Positions 7,177-35,606 of a stretch of 48,274 nt of DNA are shown here, in pieces (the stretch's first letter is position 1; each line of letters starts with the position of its first letter). Source of the stretch: Candidatus Gastranaerophilales bacterium. GTDB lineage: Bacteria > Cyanobacteriota > Vampirovibrionia > Gastranaerophilales > Gastranaerophilaceae. The DNA lies in NCBI GenBank assembly GCA_944323625.1, contig CALUTD010000018.1, positions 1-48,274 of the forward strand. Reading direction: 5' to 3'. The notes under the pieces are model-generated. The model saw only the letters and a list, made by a program, of their open reading frames with translations, was not told the origin of the DNA and did no database searches. The position numbers and the translations under genes were made by a program.

Positions 7177-7286
7177 AGTCAATAAAATCACATGTTAAAA
7201 AGATATAAAGACAAATTGAAATATTTACAATTTTAATGCAAAAATTATTAAATTTATGATAATATAAATATAAAGGAGATACAGAT

Positions 7287-8008
7287 ATGACAAAATTATA
7301 CAAATATACCACGGGGGGGGGGTATTTTCAAGTTCAAAATCCCTTACTCTATCTGAGGTTTTGATAACTATTGTTGTTATTGGAATAGTTGTTTCAATGA
7401 CAATACCTGTCGTCATTACAAATTATAGAAAAACACAAGTTGAAGCTAAATTGAAAAAATTTTATTCTTCTATGACTAACGCAATTCGTCTTTCCGAAAC
7501 AGAAAACGGAAACAGCTCTGATTGGCCTACGAATATGAACTGGAACAGTAAAGATGAATTATATGTTTGGTTTGATAAATATATTATGAAAAATGTAAAT
7601 TTATTAACGGATTGCCGCCAGGCAAAAGATAAAAGATGTGAAATACTGCTTAACAGTGAATATACAAATGATAATATTGCGGCAATTTATATATTTTCCG
7701 ATGGCAGCTACGTAAATATTATTCCCGGCGGAGGAAAAACAGAGGGTTTAGAAAGACAATTTCATCTTAGGTATGACATTAACGGGAATAAATCACCAAA
7801 TAAGCAGGGTAAAGATATTTTTTCTTTCAGGTTTGTAAACGGACAAATTAATTGCGACGGCCATAATACAGTTACAAGTACAAGTGTTTCCCAAAAAACA
7901 GACAGAAAAAAACTCATAGAATCTTGTAAACAGAGTCCGAAAACATGTACTTGCTTAATTATGAAAGATGCCTGGCTAATCAAAAAAGATTATCCTATTG
8001 CCCTGTAA
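7287..8008 (+). CDS. Type II/IV pseudopilin-like protein, out of frame at a G10 tract (phase-variable candidate)
   Basis: The gene has a ribosome binding site (AAAGGAGA, 7272-7279) and an ATG at 7287. The leader M-T-K-L-Y-K-Y-T-T-G-G-G runs into ten G (7313-7322) and then reads to a stop at 7362. The pilin body is in the -1 frame: G-V-F-S-S-S-K-S-L-T-L-S-E-V-L-I-T-I, a prepilin N-terminus with the +5 glutamate, then a helix of about 20 residues. The globular part has D-I-N-G-N-K-S-P-N and the C-terminus W-L-I-K-K-D-Y-P. These match the intact paralogue at 34949. Eight or eleven G would join leader and body, giving a protein of about 241 aa. The body frame has no good start of its own; TTG at 7361 would cut away the prepilin signal. 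It is OFF in this sequence, unless -1 slippage or a sequencing error explains the frame. The product would be a cell-surface or pseudopilus subunit. Confidence 0.75.
7313..7322 (+). repeat. Homopolymer tract G10 within the pseudopilin leader
   Basis: Ten consecutive G lie in DNA that is otherwise very poor in GC. The flanks are AC before and TATTTT after, as at the second tract at 34805. Tracts of this length slip readily in replication and act as on/off switches in known phase-variable genes. Confidence 0.95.
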
Positions 8009-8157: not shown

Positions 8158-11100
8158 ATGGATATTACACCGTCCGGAAATAATTTATGGAGCAATAAGG
8201 TTAATACCAAAGAGAATAAAGGCAGAAAGTATGATAATCTTTCGCCGCTAAAAAAAGATACCGTAAGTTTTTCAGGTAATGGAGAAACTCTTAAATCTGC
8301 TGCGGATAAAACTGCCGATACTTCAAATAAATTCTTTGATTTTGACTCATCAAAAATTAAAGAAATTACATCGGATTCCATTATTACTCTTCAAGACGGA
8401 ACTCAAATCCCTTTAACCGAGTATATTAACCAAATACTCTCTTCTCCGGCAAGTTTTAATACGGACGAGGAGTATAAACAATATATTTTGAATACAATGT
8501 CATCAAATCTTGAAATGATGAAAACCGCATTTAAAGAACAGGACAATAACGACGGTATTGTTTCTAAAGCATACGATAAACTTAAAGACTTAACGGGTTT
8601 TGGTATTTCATCCGGTGATGTTGAAAATATGATTGCTGAGCAAGAGCAAATTATTGAAGGTTTATCCTCTGCATTAAATTCTGAATCTTCAATATCATTT
8701 GAAGAAGCATTTGAACAATATACCGGAGTTCCATATTCAAAAGAAAAACTGGATGATTATCTTGAAATTTCTAATAAATATTCGGCCATTATGACTGGTT
8801 GTCAGAATGATAAGGATTTTGCAAAAAAAGTAAAAAAAGCCACGGGTAAATCCGTTAAAAAACTATCTAAGGAATTTGCACTGGCGCAGACGGAAACTTT
8901 CGGCAAAACCGCCTCTTTAAAATTTGATACTGAAAAATATGCGCAGGATAAAGACACCTTTAAAGATAAACTGTCCGGTATAATATCCGCTGCCGGTATG
9001 GGAAGTATAGTTTTAGGTTCCGCTTTATGTTTTTTCTTTCCGCCGGCTGCACCGGCAGGAGTTGCATTAATGGCTGCCGGTAAGTCCGTATCATTAGGCG
9101 GTATGTTTATTGATAATGCCATGGATTTAGTCGATAATGTAACGGATTCAGACGGCTTAACAAAACAGGAAATTTCCAATTTGGCGCTTGAAACAGGTTT
9201 TGAAGCAGTTTCATACGGAACAGGACGTATGATTGGTAAATTTACAAACGGTTTAAACTGTATTGTTTCAAATAAAGCCGCAAATGCAGGGTTTGGTTAT
9301 GTAGGCTCTCATATCTCCGGGCAGGCTGCCGAAACAGGAGTTGATGCCGCTTTATCTTTGACGGCTGATTTTGTTCTTGCTCAAGGTCAGTCATATATTA
9401 CTACCGGACAATTTATGGATGCAAAAGATTACTGGTCAATGGAAAGATTTTTAAACGAAGGCAGAAACCAATTAATGGGTATATTAACCGGTATGGCTTC
9501 TTCCAAAATCAATGCTTTTCAACAAAATGTAATTACCACCGCTCAAAGTAAAATATTATCGGGTGATACCGATGGCGCAAAAGCTCATTTGAAAAAATCA
9601 GGCATGAAAATGAATGATTCTCAATTTGAACAATTTGTATTGTCTGTAAAAGAAGCTGAAAATAGCAAGAATCAAGGTTTATCGGAAATTTTAACAAAAC
9701 CTGAAAATATTACAGCAGAACCTGTTGAATCTGAGCAAACGGAATTAAATACAGAACCTTTAATCTCTGAAGAACATGATGAAACAATAGAAACAGACAT
9801 AAAAGCTTCAACGCCGGGCGAAACTAACCAGGAAAAAATGCAGCAATCTTATGATGAAATTATAACAGAGCCTAAAAATAGTGCCGATTCTCCTGTTCAA
9901 CCAAAAGAATCAGTTCAGTCTAAAACGAATGAAAATATCAATAACAAAAATGAAGAATCACAAACTGAACCACCAAAAACTTTAACAGAATCTGAAAATA
10001 TTATAGTAGACCCTGTTAAACCGGTCGAACCTGAGCAAACGTCATTAAATACCGAGCCTCCAAGTTATAGTAAAATGCTCAGATATGAGAAAAATCTTTT
10101 AACTCAAATCACTTCAGATTCAACACTGAATGACTATGCGGAACAAATGATAGATTATGTAAACACTCCCGAACAATATAAATTGGCAGAGAAAATATTA
10201 TCCGATGAAAAGTTATATGATAACCATGATTTTATGCAAATAGCAGGGGAGATTATCTATGCTTCAAAAACACAAGAACAAGCAGAAATAACAATAAATC
10301 TTATTGATAAAATTTTATCCGATGAAAAGTTATATGATAACCATGATTTTATGAAAAAAGCAGGGGAGATTATCTATTTTTCAAACTCACAAGAACAAGC
10401 AGAAGCAGAAATAAATCTTATTGATAAAATCTTATCTGATGAAAAGTTATATAACAACTCTGATTTTATGGAAAAAGCAGGGGAGATTATCTATGCTTCA
10501 AAAACACAAGAACAAGCAGAAGTAAAAATAAATCTTATTGATAAGATTTTATCCGATGAAAAGTTATATAACAACCCTAATTTTATGAAAGCAGCATGGG
10601 ATATTATCAGAAGTACAAAAACACAAGAACAAGCACAACTGGTAGATAAAATATTATCCGGTGAAAAGTTATATAACAACTCTAGTTTTATGAAAAATGC
10701 AGTCAAGCTTATCCAATATACAAACACAAAAGAAAGAGTACAACTTGTAGATAAAATATTATCTAATGAAAAATTATATAACAATCCTGATTTTATGTAC
10801 AAAGCAGGAGAAATTATCATTAGTGCAAACACACAAGAAAAATTACAAATAAAAATAAATTTGATTGATAAAATCTTATCTGATGAAAAATTATATGATA
10901 ACCCCGATTTTTTGCAAAAAGCAGTGGATATTATCAGATATACAGACACACAAGAACAAGTACAACTTGCTGATAAAATCTTATCCGAAGAAAAGTTATA
11001 TAACAACCCTAATTGTATGCAAAAAGCAGGAGGGATTATCATTAGTGCAAACACAAAAGAAAGAGCACAACTTGCAGATAAAATCTTATCCGATGAAAAG

Positions 11101-14100
11101 TTATATAACAACCCTAATATCATGAAAAATGCAGGGGATTTTATATTATATACAGATACACAAGAAGAAGTAGAAATAAAAATAAATCTTATTGATAAAA
11201 TCTTGTCTAATGAAAAGTTATATAACAACCCTAATATCATGAAAAATGCAAGCAAGATTATACAATATACAAACACAAAAGAAAGAGTACAACTGGCAGA
11301 TAAGATTTTATTTAATGAAAAGTTATATGATAACTCTGATTTTATGAAAAATATAGGTTGGATTATCGTCTATACAAACACGCAAGAAACAGCAAAAATA
11401 AAAATAAATCTTATTGATAAGATCTTATCCAATGAAAAGTTATATAACAATCCTGATTTTATGAAAACTGCAGGAGAGATTATCAAAAATACAGACACAC
11501 AAGAACAAGCAGAAATAAAAATAAATCTTATTGATAAAATCTTGTCTAATGAAAAGTTATATGATAACTCTGATTTTATGCAAACAGCAGGGGAGATTAT
11601 CATTAGTGCAAATACACAAGAAAAAGCAGAAATAAAAATAAATCTTATTGATAAAATTTTATCTAATGAAAAGTTATATAAAAACCCTAATATCATGAAA
11701 AATGCAGGCAAGATTATACAATATACAAACGAAAAAGAACAAACACAACTGGCAGATAAAATCTTATCTAATGAAAAATTATATAACAATCCTGATTTTA
11801 TGAAAAAAGCAGGGGAAATTATCAAAAATACAGACACACAAGAACAAGCAGAAATAAAAATAAATCTTATTGATAAAATCTTATCCGATGAAAAGTTATA
11901 TAACAACCCTGATATCATGAAAAATACAGGGGAAATTATCTATTATTCAGACACACAAGAAAAAGCAGAAATAAAAATAAATCTTATTGATAAAATTTTA
12001 TCTAATGAAAAATTATATAATAACACTGATATTATGGAAAAAGCAGGGGAGATTATTAAAACTGCAAACTCACAAGAAAATCTGCAGAAAATTTTAAACC
12101 TTCTTGATAACTATGAAAACATGGAAATAACTCCTTCTCAAATCCCGCTCTTAGTAAACAAACAAGAAGATGAAATAACACTAACTCAATTAAAAAGATT
12201 AAATAAAGTTATCGGACGAAAACAAGCAAATAAATTATCTCCTTCCGATACAATTATTGCAGCAAACTTTACCGAAATAGCAGGCAAAAAAAATATAAAC
12301 GAAATTCCGCTCTATAAAAAGCGTGATTTCCTAAGAAAACTTGTTGCTTCTAATGCAGATTTATTTAACCAAAGTGAAGAACTGCAAAAATTGTTCCCTC
12401 TTCTGCCTAAAAATCAGGAAGAATATTGCTCGCTCCTCCCCGCTATCGTTAAATCCTTAGGTATTGAAACAAATTCTTTAAGCTCTGAACAGGTAAAAAT
12501 CTTTGATTCCTCTATGTCTGATTTATCCTCAGCTCTTAAAAATATCTCCGATTCCTCTTTTAAAAACCTTTCTATTTCCCAAAAATACACTAAAGATGCT
12601 TTCATTAAAGATATTTTGAGCAAGGTTAAGAATTTGGTGCCCTCTGAACGCCAAAAAGTCTATGACTATTTTGGTTTTGAACTCCATAAAAACTACAGAA
12701 CTAATACCGGTTTCTACATTACAGGCTACCCGGTTAATCTTAATAACGGTAAAAAATTAGCCCAAATTACCGACCCGAAAACTAAAGAGGTTGTTGAAGA
12801 TGTCAGAAAAAATGTTATTAAATTCAGTGAAAATAACCCAATTATATCATCAGACAAAAATATTGAACGAGCTTTGAATTCTATAGTTAAATATATGCCT
12901 GAATTGAGAACTATGGTTAATAAAGTTCAGGCAGGTAATGCAGGGCTTGAAACTAAAGGTCTTCACAGTTATGATATTTTGAAACATTCTCTTAAAGTTA
13001 TGCAAAAAATATCTCAGGATGAAAATTTTAATAAACTTAATGACTCCGATAAAAAAATTATGTTAATTGCTTCATTAATGCATGATATTACTAAAAAAGA
13101 AGGTTATACCGATAAAACTCACTGCAATGAAGGTGCTTTTGACATGTTCTTTATCTCCCAAAAACTTAATCTTTCTCGAGATGAACAAATTAAATTGTAT
13201 AATCTGATAAAACATCACGAATGGCTTTCTTTTGTCAATACGGCAAAATCAGAACCTGAACTAAAAGAAAGACTTCAATCAACTGCTTATGATTTAAGAC
13301 ATGATAATTTGCTTGATTTATCCTTAATGTTCTCTCATGCCGATTTAAAAGCTATAAGAGAAGATGACTCTTTTCATGATACAAAAGATGGTGATTCAAG
13401 AGTAGATTTCAACGGTGAAATCAGGAGTTTTGGAGAATCCTGCGACCTGTACGGGCAAAAACTTAAAGAATATATTTTGGAACTTCAAAAATCGCAGCCT
13501 ATTCTCCCTGTCACTAAATTCCCTTCGGCTGACAGAATAAAACAAAGTTTAACAATTAACCCTGACGGCTCCACAAATGTTAAAGGCGTATACGTCGATA
13601 AAGACGGGCTTGTTGTAATTAAATACAATGAAGTTGATGATTGGGAAAAAATAGGATTCCCCGAAGGCTCTGTTTCAAAAGGTTTTTCTCAAACTATGTT
13701 TGACGGACAAAATTTTAATACCGGAAATATTAAATTCTTTGCCCACGGTCTTGATTACCCGAATCAGTTAACCAAGTTTGATGCCTTCTCTTTGGTGGAT
13801 TCAGATGCATTATTATCAGTAAGTTACGCGGAAAGACCCGAATCTAAATACAGATTCTTTAGACCGCAGGGAGTTTTATTGGATGTTGATACAAAAGATA
13901 TCCACGGCGGCGGTAATACTGATTCAGGCTCCGGCTACGGCAAAAATATAGATATCTTTAAACAAGAATATATCTTTGGCGCTAATAGAGAAAGTGACAG
14001 ATTGTATATCTCCAATCTCGTTAAAAAAGCTCTTAATTTTACGGACGAAGAGTATATTAATTTTGTAAAAGAAAATGCTAATAAACCTTTTAGCGAAATA

Positions 14101-14412
14101 CAACCTGAAGAAGCAAGAGAAGCTTTAATTAAAGCTTTTGCCTCCATTAACTCAAATGCAAGAAAAGGAAACAGAGAATACAATGAAATGTATATATCAA
14201 ACCCCAAACCACCTATGGCTGTTTTTGCCTATGATATTAACTATAACGCAAAAATAGATAACCCGCTTTCCTTCTTAAACAGAGAAGAAATAGGAAAATA
14301 CGACACAAGTTTCGGTTTTAACAGTGATAATATTTCCGTTAAAGACAGAACATCTTTCCTTCGTCAATACGCACTTGAAAGAAATATCCCCTTCTTTATT
14401 TTCGGAGATTAA
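8158..14412 (+). CDS. Giant 2084-aa repeat protein with HD-type domain and N-terminal S-F-S-G motif
   Basis: I do not recognise the whole protein. Order of parts: an N-terminal tag D-T-V-S-F-S-G (about residues 36-42) without a Sec signal; a helical region with a hydrophobic Ala/Gly-rich stretch (about 275-325); an acidic, T/E/P-rich linker (about 505-640); and 17 tandem repeats (about 676-1310). The repeats come in two lengths, 35 and 39 residues, and share the core D-K-I-L-S-(D/N)-E-K-L-Y-(N/D)-N. Next is an HD-phosphohydrolase-like region (about 1600-1740) with L-M-H-D-I and later H-H-E-W, then an unknown C-terminal domain. The HD metal set looks plausible but is unproven. AAGGA lies 8 bases before the ATG. 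A secreted or host-directed effector is possible; nothing in the sequence proves it. Confidence 0.85.
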   Translation: MDITPSGNNLWSNKVNTKENKGRKYDNLSPLKKDTVSFSGNGETLKSAADKTADTSNKFFDFDSSKIKEITSDSIITLQDGTQIPLTEYINQILSSPASFNTDEEYKQYILNTMSSNLEMMKTAFKEQDNNDGIVSKAYDKLKDLTGFGISSGDVENMIAEQEQIIEGLSSALNSESSISFEEAFEQYTGVPYSKEKLDDYLEISNKYSAIMTGCQNDKDFAKKVKKATGKSVKKLSKEFALAQTETFGKTASLKFDTEKYAQDKDTFKDKLSGIISAAGMGSIVLGSALCFFFPPAAPAGVALMAAGKSVSLGGMFIDNAMDLVDNVTDSDGLTKQEISNLALETGFEAVSYGTGRMIGKFTNGLNCIVSNKAANAGFGYVGSHISGQAAETGVDAALSLTADFVLAQGQSYITTGQFMDAKDYWSMERFLNEGRNQLMGILTGMASSKINAFQQNVITTAQSKILSGDTDGAKAHLKKSGMKMNDSQFEQFVLSVKEAENSKNQGLSEILTKPENITAEPVESEQTELNTEPLISEEHDETIETDIKASTPGETNQEKMQQSYDEIITEPKNSADSPVQPKESVQSKTNENINNKNEESQTEPPKTLTESENIIVDPVKPVEPEQTSLNTEPPSYSKMLRYEKNLLTQITSDSTLNDYAEQMIDYVNTPEQYKLAEKILSDEKLYDNHDFMQIAGEIIYASKTQEQAEITINLIDKILSDEKLYDNHDFMKKAGEIIYFSNSQEQAEAEINLIDKILSDEKLYNNSDFMEKAGEIIYASKTQEQAEVKINLIDKILSDEKLYNNPNFMKAAWDIIRSTKTQEQAQLVDKILSGEKLYNNSSFMKNAVKLIQYTNTKERVQLVDKILSNEKLYNNPDFMYKAGEIIISANTQEKLQIKINLIDKILSDEKLYDNPDFLQKAVDIIRYTDTQEQVQLADKILSEEKLYNNPNCMQKAGGIIISANTKERAQLADKILSDEKLYNNPNIMKNAGDFILYTDTQEEVEIKINLIDKILSNEKLYNNPNIMKNASKIIQYTNTKERVQLADKILFNEKLYDNSDFMKNIGWIIVYTNTQETAKIKINLIDKILSNEKLYNNPDFMKTAGEIIKNTDTQEQAEIKINLIDKILSNEKLYDNSDFMQTAGEIIISANTQEKAEIKINLIDKILSNEKLYKNPNIMKNAGKIIQYTNEKEQTQLADKILSNEKLYNNPDFMKKAGEIIKNTDTQEQAEIKINLIDKILSDEKLYNNPDIMKNTGEIIYYSDTQEKAEIKINLIDKILSNEKLYNNTDIMEKAGEIIKTANSQENLQKILNLLDNYENMEITPSQIPLLVNKQEDEITLTQLKRLNKVIGRKQANKLSPSDTIIAANFTEIAGKKNINEIPLYKKRDFLRKLVASNADLFNQSEELQKLFPLLPKNQEEYCSLLPAIVKSLGIETNSLSSEQVKIFDSSMSDLSSALKNISDSSFKNLSISQKYTKDAFIKDILSKVKNLVPSERQKVYDYFGFELHKNYRTNTGFYITGYPVNLNNGKKLAQITDPKTKEVVEDVRKNVIKFSENNPIISSDKNIERALNSIVKYMPELRTMVNKVQAGNAGLETKGLHSYDILKHSLKVMQKISQDENFNKLNDSDKKIMLIASLMHDITKKEGYTDKTHCNEGAFDMFFISQKLNLSRDEQIKLYNLIKHHEWLSFVNTAKSEPELKERLQSTAYDLRHDNLLDLSLMFSHADLKAIREDDSFHDTKDGDSRVDFNGEIRSFGESCDLYGQKLKEYILELQKSQPILPVTKFPSADRIKQSLTINPDGSTNVKGVYVDKDGLVVIKYNEVDDWEKIGFPEGSVSKGFSQTMFDGQNFNTGNIKFFAHGLDYPNQLTKFDAFSLVDSDALLSVSYAERPESKYRFFRPQGVLLDVDTKDIHGGGNTDSGSGYGKNIDIFKQEYIFGANRESDRLYISNLVKKALNFTDEEYINFVKENANKPFSEIQPEEAREALIKAFASINSNARKGNREYNEMYISNPKPPMAVFAYDINYNAKIDNPLSFLNREEIGKYDTSFGFNSDNISVKDRTSFLRQYALERNIPFFIFGD
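10186..12090 (+). repeat. 17 tandem coding repeats of 105 or 117 bp
   Basis: The unit encodes D-K-I-L-S-x-E-K-L-Y-x-N-x-x-x-M, a helical pair and a T-Q-E-type turn. Long units add four residues before the next D-K-I-L (I-N-L-I type). The near-identical DNA of many units points to recent expansion by recombination or slippage. Long frames on the opposite strand are a by-product of this repeat. Confidence 0.9.
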
Positions 14413-34746: not shown

Positions 34747-34778
34747 ATATTATAATATAAATTCACAAAGGAGAAAAA

Positions 34779-34879
34779 ATGTTTAATAATCAAGTAATAG
34801 CTACGGGGGGGGGGTATTTTTAAGCAATAAATTAAACAAATATATTTATAAATTACTTGTTCAATCAATGCAGTATTAG
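34779..34879 (+). CDS. Short ORF with G10 tract, pilin-leader-like, no pilin body
   Basis: AAAGGAG (34767-34773) and ATG at 34779 open a leader M-F-N-N-Q-V-I-A-T that runs into ten G. In frame 0 it ends after Y-F (stop 34821-34823). In the -1 frame (equal to 11 G) it reads G-G-G-V-F-L-S-N-K and goes on to a stop at 34877-34879, inside the terminator loop, giving 33 aa. The leader layout copies that of the pseudopilin at 7287: threonine as residue 9, then Gly3 and V-F-x-S-x-K in the -1 frame. It has no prepilin helix. It may be a leader peptide, a small regulatory RNA, or the stub left by deletion of a pilin body. Confidence 0.5.
34805..34814 (+). repeat. Second homopolymer tract G10
   Basis: Ten G flanked by AC and TATTTT, the same flanks and length as the tract at 7313-7322. 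These are the only G runs longer than seven that I noticed in the window. Confidence 0.95.
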
Positions 34880-34892
34880 GCATTGATTTTTT
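34863..34892 (+). terminator. Intrinsic terminator closing the G10 mini-locus
   Basis: A perfect 9-bp stem AATCAATGC/GCATTGATT (34863-34871 with 34880-34888) with an 8-base loop, then TTTT. It makes the locus a separate transcript of about 140 bases and keeps it apart from the downstream pilin gene. Confidence 0.85.
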
Positions 34893-34948: not shown

Positions 34949-35602
34949 ATGCAAAAACAAAAAACATTCACACTTGCAGAAGTACTTATAACACTTGTTG
35001 TTATCGGTATAATTGCAGCAATAACCGTGCCTATGATAATGGCGAACCATAGAAAAACAGAAACAGCATCAAGATTAAAGAAATTCTATTCAACGTTGTC
35101 AAATGCAGTAAAACTGGCAGAAACCGAAATGGGACTTCCTTTATCTGAATGGTTAAGTGGTAATAATAATTTAGTCTTAAAATATTTAAATGTAACCGAA
35201 ATAGACCCTGAAGAGGACTATAATGCCGGACAATACATTTATTATGATGGAGGTATGGGACCAAATTTTGCACCTTCTTCCGCATATATATTGGCAGATG
35301 GAAGTGTTATGGGGTTTGACACTGTTGATACTATATATTTTGATGTAAACGGAGATAAAAAGCCAAATATGCCCGGCCGTGATATATTTTTCTTCTCTTT
35401 TGCGGACGATAAAGTATACCCTGACTTAATATTTGGTTTGTGGACTGATAGTGGATGTGATACGCCCGAAGGATATTCAAATTGTCCTAGAAGTTTTTCA
35501 AGAGAGGTTTATCTCGATTACTGTAAAAATCAAAAATTTTGTACCGGTTTAGTTATGTCTGACGGTTGGGAATTTAAAGATGATTATCCATATAAATTAT
35601 AG
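34949..35602 (+). CDS. Type II/IV pseudopilin-like protein (intact)
   Basis: 217 aa. A short basic leader M-Q-K-Q-K-T precedes F-T-L-A-E-V-L-I-T-L and a 20-residue hydrophobic helix ending A-I-T-V-P, the class-III signal cut by prepilin peptidase. The +5 glutamate is present; the residue before F is T rather than the usual G. The globular domain has D-V-N-G-D-K-K-P-N-M-P-G-R-D and ends L-V-M-S-D-G-W-E-F-K-D-D-Y-P-Y-K-L. The gene at 7287 shares both motifs. GGAGG stands before the ATG. No pilus machinery genes are nearby, so it must work with loci elsewhere. Confidence 0.85.
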   Translation: MQKQKTFTLAEVLITLVVIGIIAAITVPMIMANHRKTETASRLKKFYSTLSNAVKLAETEMGLPLSEWLSGNNNLVLKYLNVTEIDPEEDYNAGQYIYYDGGMGPNFAPSSAYILADGSVMGFDTVDTIYFDVNGDKKPNMPGRDIFFFSFADDKVYPDLIFGLWTDSGCDTPEGYSNCPRSFSREVYLDYCKNQKFCTGLVMSDGWEFKDDYPYKL

Positions 35603-35606
35603 AACT

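Follow-up and report, generated by a model that had tools for sequence, protein, structure and literature searches.

A pilin-like gene behind a ten-G tract in Candidatus Gastranaerophilales belongs to a genome-wide array of G-tract cassettes with the features of phase-variable loci

To our knowledge, phase variation through G tracts has been described mostly in a few pathogens and in two pilus loci of Bifidobacterium. In the latter case, which is proven, G-tract slippage at bbr_0113 and bbr_1889 of Bifidobacterium breve switches sortase-dependent pili, with the reference genome in the OFF state and the ON length enriched in mice (PMC9187656). Neisseria genomes contain 15–19 poly-G tracts each, compared with 119 in the genome described here, and phase-variable loci of all gene classes reach a maximum of 54 in the gonococcus and 82 in N. 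lactamica (PMC5953494). Among Campylobacter poly-G/C tracts a length of 9 accounts for 53% and a length of 10 for 26%, and strains carry between 5 and 81 phase-variable genes (PMC6321876). The original prediction for the locus reported here had known of no such system in its lineage, and likewise we came across no relevant account of phase variation for Gastranaerophilales or Melainabacteria in the open-access literature.

The window, a stretch of 48,274 nucleotides, comes from a Candidatus Gastranaerophilales genome of 1.99 Mb in 37 contigs with ~31% G+C, and the parts of its two cassettes with their pilin genes, given below, lie on the + strand. A promoter-like region with an extended -10 (TATGATAAT), fitting the paralogue consensus ATATATGATAATAT, was placed by eye at 7233–7263 and is conserved in the family; it was missed by a generic hexamer scan. 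It is followed by a ribosome binding site (AAAGGAGA, 7272–7279, with GGAG at 7275–7278) seen in the sequence and conserved in the family, by the start of a leader ORF at ATG 7287, which over 26 nt (7287–7312) reads MTKLYKYT(T), by a G10 tract (7313–7322) and by a 17 nt linker (7323–7339) that leads to the prepilin-type signal SLTLSEVLITIVVIG and a pilin-like body (7340–8008). As assembled, the frame from ATG 7287 reads MTKLYKYTTGGGYFQVQNPLLYLRF and then stops, giving a leader of 25 codons, while the body has no stop until 8008 and is one base out of frame with this ATG. By tract and frame counts the locus is therefore OFF as assembled, and G11, or equally G8, at 7313–7322 fuses leader and body into 240 aa (MTKLYKYTTGGGVFSSSKSLTLSEVLITIVVIGIVV...). 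The RBS and ATG leading into G10, the one-base offset mended by 8 or 11 G, and the well-kept body without internal stop had all been proposed from the sequence, and all were borne out.

No alternative in-frame start with a Shine-Dalgarno sequence was found for the 7340–8008 body, and the frame and start scan showed it to be open yet without a usable start in the assembled state. Besides the tract at 7313–7322, the window has just one run of at least seven Gs, again a G10, at 34805–34814. There are six matches to GGGGGGGG in the window against 0.17 expected, a number reached by 0 of 100 shuffles, and chance is excluded as the origin of long G runs in a window of 31% G+C. In the sister species we found the adhE start that flanks the 7287 locus and no syntenic pilin, which precludes a between-species comparison of the tract at this locus, and a search for same-species strain copies in viral_contigs returned none. 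Directly 3' of the pilin, positions 8158–14412 encode a protein of 2084 aa in which a ~37-residue repeat (..INLIDKILSNEKLYNNPDFMKKAGEIIKNTDTQEQAE..) occurs many times and whose Pfam match was weak and sub-threshold only.

The 7287 locus is one member of a genome-wide array of about 90 putative pilin switches. The genome holds 121 tracts of at least eight Gs and 119 of at least nine, the latter against ~0.2 expected from base composition, and 119 distinct tracts were taken with their flanks for mapping and alignment. Their lengths were G9 in 63 (53%), G10 in 47 (39%), G11 in seven and G8 in two. Using a profile of the pilin N-terminus (A1) to search the genome, we obtained 118 matches, equivalent to about 115 genes, a few being split, and 89 of the 119 mapped tracts were located within 330 nt upstream of such a match, compared with a mean of 2.4 and a maximum of 9 in 1000 random placements. 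The G run was on the coding strand at 83 of these 89 and six were poly-C; at the four poly-C loci inspected (L035, L087, L090 and L091) a leader start is likewise followed by the C tract and an out-of-frame pilin.

Using simple rules for leader calls and for the distance between tract and signal, we split the loci into two types. In type A, with 55 loci including that at 7287, the prepilin signal lies no more than about 110 nt from the tract, and one of the three frames joins it to the leader. These 55 fused loci share one cassette, formed of promoter, GGAG, ATG, ~8 codons, G8–11 and prepilin signal, with the promoter conserved at ~-55 from the tract. Alignment of all leaders gave a consensus of extended -10 (ATATATGATAATAT), AAAAAGGAGATAAAATTATGAATAAATCA..AACCGCYAC, the tract and then TARAA. 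Information content upstream rises only in the promoter-leader-tract cassette, and conservation drops upstream of the promoter, which identifies the unit as promoter-RBS-start-tract. Tract length differs between close copies: of two leaders that share the same 36 nt one has G9 and the other G10, a pair of loci with nearly identical flanks has G9 versus G10, and a tandem trio of cassettes has G8, G9 and G9.

Type B comprises about 24 loci by distance, ~20 with the full layout, in the order tract, short leader ORF, inverted repeat, second promoter-like TTGGTATATAAT, and pilin with its own RBS and ATG. The distance from tract to signal is mostly 157–174 nt, and the inverted repeat is present in the aligned loci. 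As the type B pilin has its own start, the tract cannot act there by frame fusion. One such near-identical cassette lies in the window itself (34770–34823), with GGAG, ATG 34779, G10 at 34805–34814 and a short ORF ending at TAA 34823. Between it and the next pilin gene is a terminator-like stem-loop (34863–34888), matching the inverted repeat of type B loci, and the pilin-like gene that follows, with its own RBS and ATG (34949–35603), gave a Pfam N_methyl match over cut-off and a profile match. Here the original prediction, although its observation at the one locus was correct, was understated, having overlooked both this second cassette and the ~90-locus array. We also considered the type B leader as an attenuator read through the stem-loop, an idea weakened by the inconsistent ends of the ON-frame ORFs, some of which fall before the stem.

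Analysis of the 7340–8008 product indicated a class III signal (SLTLSEVLITIVVIG), a long N-terminal helix and a beta-rich head (profile E 4.5e-25; predicted model). An N-terminal F/L-T-L-x-E(+5) signal with a hydrophobic helix is present (SLTLSEVLITIVVIGIVV), and the body profile matches PilA, GspG and PpdD in the PDB via the N-terminal segment (E 4e-6 to 3e-3); Pfam, tested on 7361–8008, gave only sub-threshold DUF6613. The predicted structure (pLDDT 86.9) has a helix at residues 4–56 and then beta strands. Fold comparison of this model yielded weak pilin matches, including the Neisseria pilin 1ay2 (Z 3.3), and Foldseek with the same model yielded nothing significant. In 48 of the 55 fused loci, the window locus among them, residue -1 of the predicted cleavage site is Ser and not the usual Gly, and for this reason we name the proteins pilin-like; both true pili and secretion-system pseudopilins are candidates for what they form. 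The genome encodes a prepilin peptidase (PF01478, C6:6183–6650) and four matches over cut-off to PilB/GspE-type ATPase homologues (PF00437). The peptidase gene lies ~440 nt upstream of a Ser-type pilin (C6:5598–5741) on the same strand. Elsewhere, loci L247 and L254 have tandem prepilin-type signals (FTLAEVF...FTLAEVLITLGI), and at L217 two tract-led pilins stand side by side.

We assessed which tract length would bring leader and pilin into frame at each of the 55 type A loci. This was G11 or G8 only at 42 loci, G9 at eight and G10 at five. As assembled, six are in frame and 49 are out of frame but open. The number in frame is below a third of the loci (binomial P about 1e-4, with loci that are related and not independent, being paralogues within one genome), but is not below expectation when the lengths are shuffled among the loci (mean 8.7 ON, P 0.14), and the OFF majority thus arises because the frame is set to rare lengths. 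The chance of a 215-codon frame staying open is about 3e-8, and OFF-OFF pairs have a median dN/dS of 0.19 (7 pairs); by these sequence measures the OFF bodies are intact and under purifying selection.

We also scanned 84,980 genomes for G9 followed by a prepilin signal. The matches listed were mainly from Candidatus Gastranaerophilales (Scatousia, Zag_111, CAG:439 and others), with few from Planctomycetia and Bacilli, and many of the Gastranaerophilales among them show the tract layout ahead of FTLAEVL signals. Proteins encoded close to tracts in the present genome reach 93% identity to these loci from the scan, which puts the genome within or close to the order. Among the matches listed, 76 loci had a clear leader, of which 11 were in frame and 65 out, compared with a mean of 27 in frame after shuffling of lengths. 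OFF is therefore commoner at these loci than their lengths predict, with a P for the shuffle that is optimistic because loci are related within genomes. An alternative in-frame start bearing a Shine-Dalgarno sequence was found at 0 of the 49 own OFF loci and at 0 of the 65 OFF loci elsewhere, and in-frame starts without one at 10 of 49 and 13 of 65, respectively. This rules out that the OFF genes are kept intact via alternative Shine-Dalgarno-bearing starts.

Very likely, in our view, the 7287 locus belongs to a genome-wide array of phase-variable (contingency) pilin loci and switches by replication slippage. The promoter and the leader start codon would always be available, with the frame depending on the G tract that separates the leader from the prepilin signal, and the gain or loss of one G by DNA polymerase slippage would switch the frame of translation. 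With G9 or G10 the leader peptide would, in most loci, stop within a few codons and no prepilin would be produced, and with G11 or G8 leader and pilin would be fused, and the prepilin made, exported and processed. Because tracts most often measure G9 or G10, and the majority of loci come into frame at G8 or G11 only, a cell would be expected to make a small, shifting subset of its pilins. The DNA itself shows the cassette with its frames, the intactness of the bodies, the association of tracts with the whole family and the bias towards OFF; how fast slippage proceeds, how states are mixed within a population, the role in pili or secretion and the selective cause, for which host immunity and phage or receptor choice are candidates, are inferred.

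That the G tract reversibly switches the frame of a surface protein, a view which the original prediction had preferred to an old pseudogene, appears to be the best-supported reading. The same cassette occurs in dozens of paralogues in both ON and OFF phases, the OFF bodies are intact and under purifying selection, and tract lengths differ between paralogues whose flanks almost match; the length distribution is contingency-like (PMC6321876) and pilus switching of this sort is proven in a commensal (PMC9187656). On the contrary side, a majority of OFF loci is compatible with other readings as well, and there are about 24 type B cassettes where frame fusion cannot act.

In one of these other readings, comparable to Neisseria pilS, the OFF copies serve mainly as a silent store from which gene conversion supplies a few expressed pilins, and the tract keeps them silent. 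Every copy, however, retains a promoter, an RBS and a start codon, which silent cassettes are without, and the ON copies are dispersed, and we therefore regard a mainly silent role as unlikely, even with about 115 pilin genes whose N-terminal segment is highly conserved and whose heads are divergent, with leader or downstream blocks common to otherwise different genes (L069/L070 and L096/L126), and with only 5–12 pilin matches in each of the sampled sister species. A reservoir is compatible with switching, and gene conversion among copies may be an additional process.

More doubtful still is an RNA-level shift, in which transcriptional slippage or programmed ribosomal frameshifting would yield a fixed in-frame fraction from every locus while DNA length stays constant. 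Such a shift would account for the conserved OFF bodies with no need for DNA switching, RNA polymerase is able to slip on long homopolymers, and most loci are indeed one base off as assembled, but some loci are already in frame and tract lengths vary among otherwise similar cassettes. Furthermore, the shift required is not the same at all OFF loci, going one way at 34 and the other way at 15 here (40 and 25 elsewhere), so a single programmed shift would not suffice, and a programmed frameshift with one conserved direction is rejected. That the loci are pseudogenes or assembly errors, with a decayed or miscounted homopolymer, is scarcely credible: although G runs are error-prone, one relative has a suspicious G27 at a contig end and two fused loci (L124 and L125) have an extra frameshift within the body, the 49 OFF bodies are open and under purifying selection, errors would need both signs, the pattern is repeated in many independently assembled genomes, and a frame check found the other genes of the window intact.

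Comparison of relatives showed that the number of tracts of at least nine Gs is bimodal within the genus despite a kept mutS, with 0–8 in tract-poor and 16–76 in tract-rich species (119 in this genome), and 0–6 in other sampled genera of the order. The mutS1 gene is present here, over cut-off and without stops, as it is in nearly all relatives, whether tract-rich or tract-poor. Loss of MutS as the cause of the tracts is thus rejected, in a test that covered MutS only, and slippage is not raised by such a loss. Contingency tracts switch in MMR-proficient species too, more slowly. The sister species G008 and G019 also have G-tract leaders before pilins, with leader sequences of their own (MLINAETRT, MNNIKHHT). 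Two G019 loci (L135 and L162, on C55 and C127) have G27 runs, one of them at a contig end, which are likely sequencing or assembly artefacts, and tract counts for G019 are inflated as a result.

Glycan genes are classic targets of phase variation. The tracts examined in two tract-rich sisters (G026 and G034) lie in such genes, namely those for glycosyltransferase family 2, FkbM methyltransferases, WbqC, GDP-mannose dehydratase and PEP mutase. Likewise, non-pilin tracts in the present genome include those of a WxcM/FdtA-like protein and a family 2 glycosyltransferase. Within 4 kb (G000:C4:4849–8737; L058, L059 and L067) tracts are found in a UDP-glucose/GDP-mannose dehydrogenase, a DegT aminotransferase and a hexapeptide transferase, which probably form a phase-variable surface-glycan cluster.

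We also lean towards a broader reading, in which this one 2 Mb gut genome holds a combinatorial pilus repertoire of >50 pilin-like proteins, carried on portable cassettes that are mostly OFF at G9/G10 with ~1/10 ON, as an order-wide strategy of surface variation in Gastranaerophilales. A poorly known, non-photosynthetic cyanobacterial gut lineage would then seem to run its surface on ~90 pilin switches, and the mostly-OFF setting would be a design feature, the choice of frame relative to the usual tract length setting the expressed fraction. The prediction is that pilus types form a mosaic in every gut population, that most such genes are missed or truncated by standard annotation, and that the pressure from host or phage suffices to maintain the system.

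The nearest proven case is the sortase-pilus G-tract switch of B. breve, also a gut commensal, which has the same order of promoter and RBS, short leader ORF, G tract and out-of-frame pilin body, with leader and body fused through replication slippage (PMC9187656). It differs in its Sec signal and LPXTG sortase pili, encoded in two clusters, whereas the present loci have type IV-type signals in tens of genes of an unrelated lineage. The poly-G loci of Neisseria, pilC among them, share a coding-region G/C homopolymer that switches a pilus-related protein, with modal lengths of 9–10 (PMC5953494); PilC, however, is a pilus-associated adhesin/retraction protein, and here it is the pilin-like protein itself that would be switched. 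Campylobacter resembles the present genome in its low G+C, its tracts peaking at 9 and then 10, and its surface-gene targets (PMC6321876), although these are mainly glycan, flagellar and adhesin genes and not one multigene pilin family. As in Neisseria pilE/pilS, many variant type IV pilin sequences occur in one genome, but pilS copies have no promoter or start and act by recombination, whereas here each copy has its own promoter, start and tract. The kind of switch is already known from Neisseria pilC and Bifidobacterium pili; what appears new is its scale, its lineage, its position in the pilin leader and its mostly-OFF setting. The genome, in which 89 of the 119 G tracts belong to a single protein family, stands above the Neisseria and Campylobacter figures, and the array is the largest of such switches on one surface-protein family that we could find.
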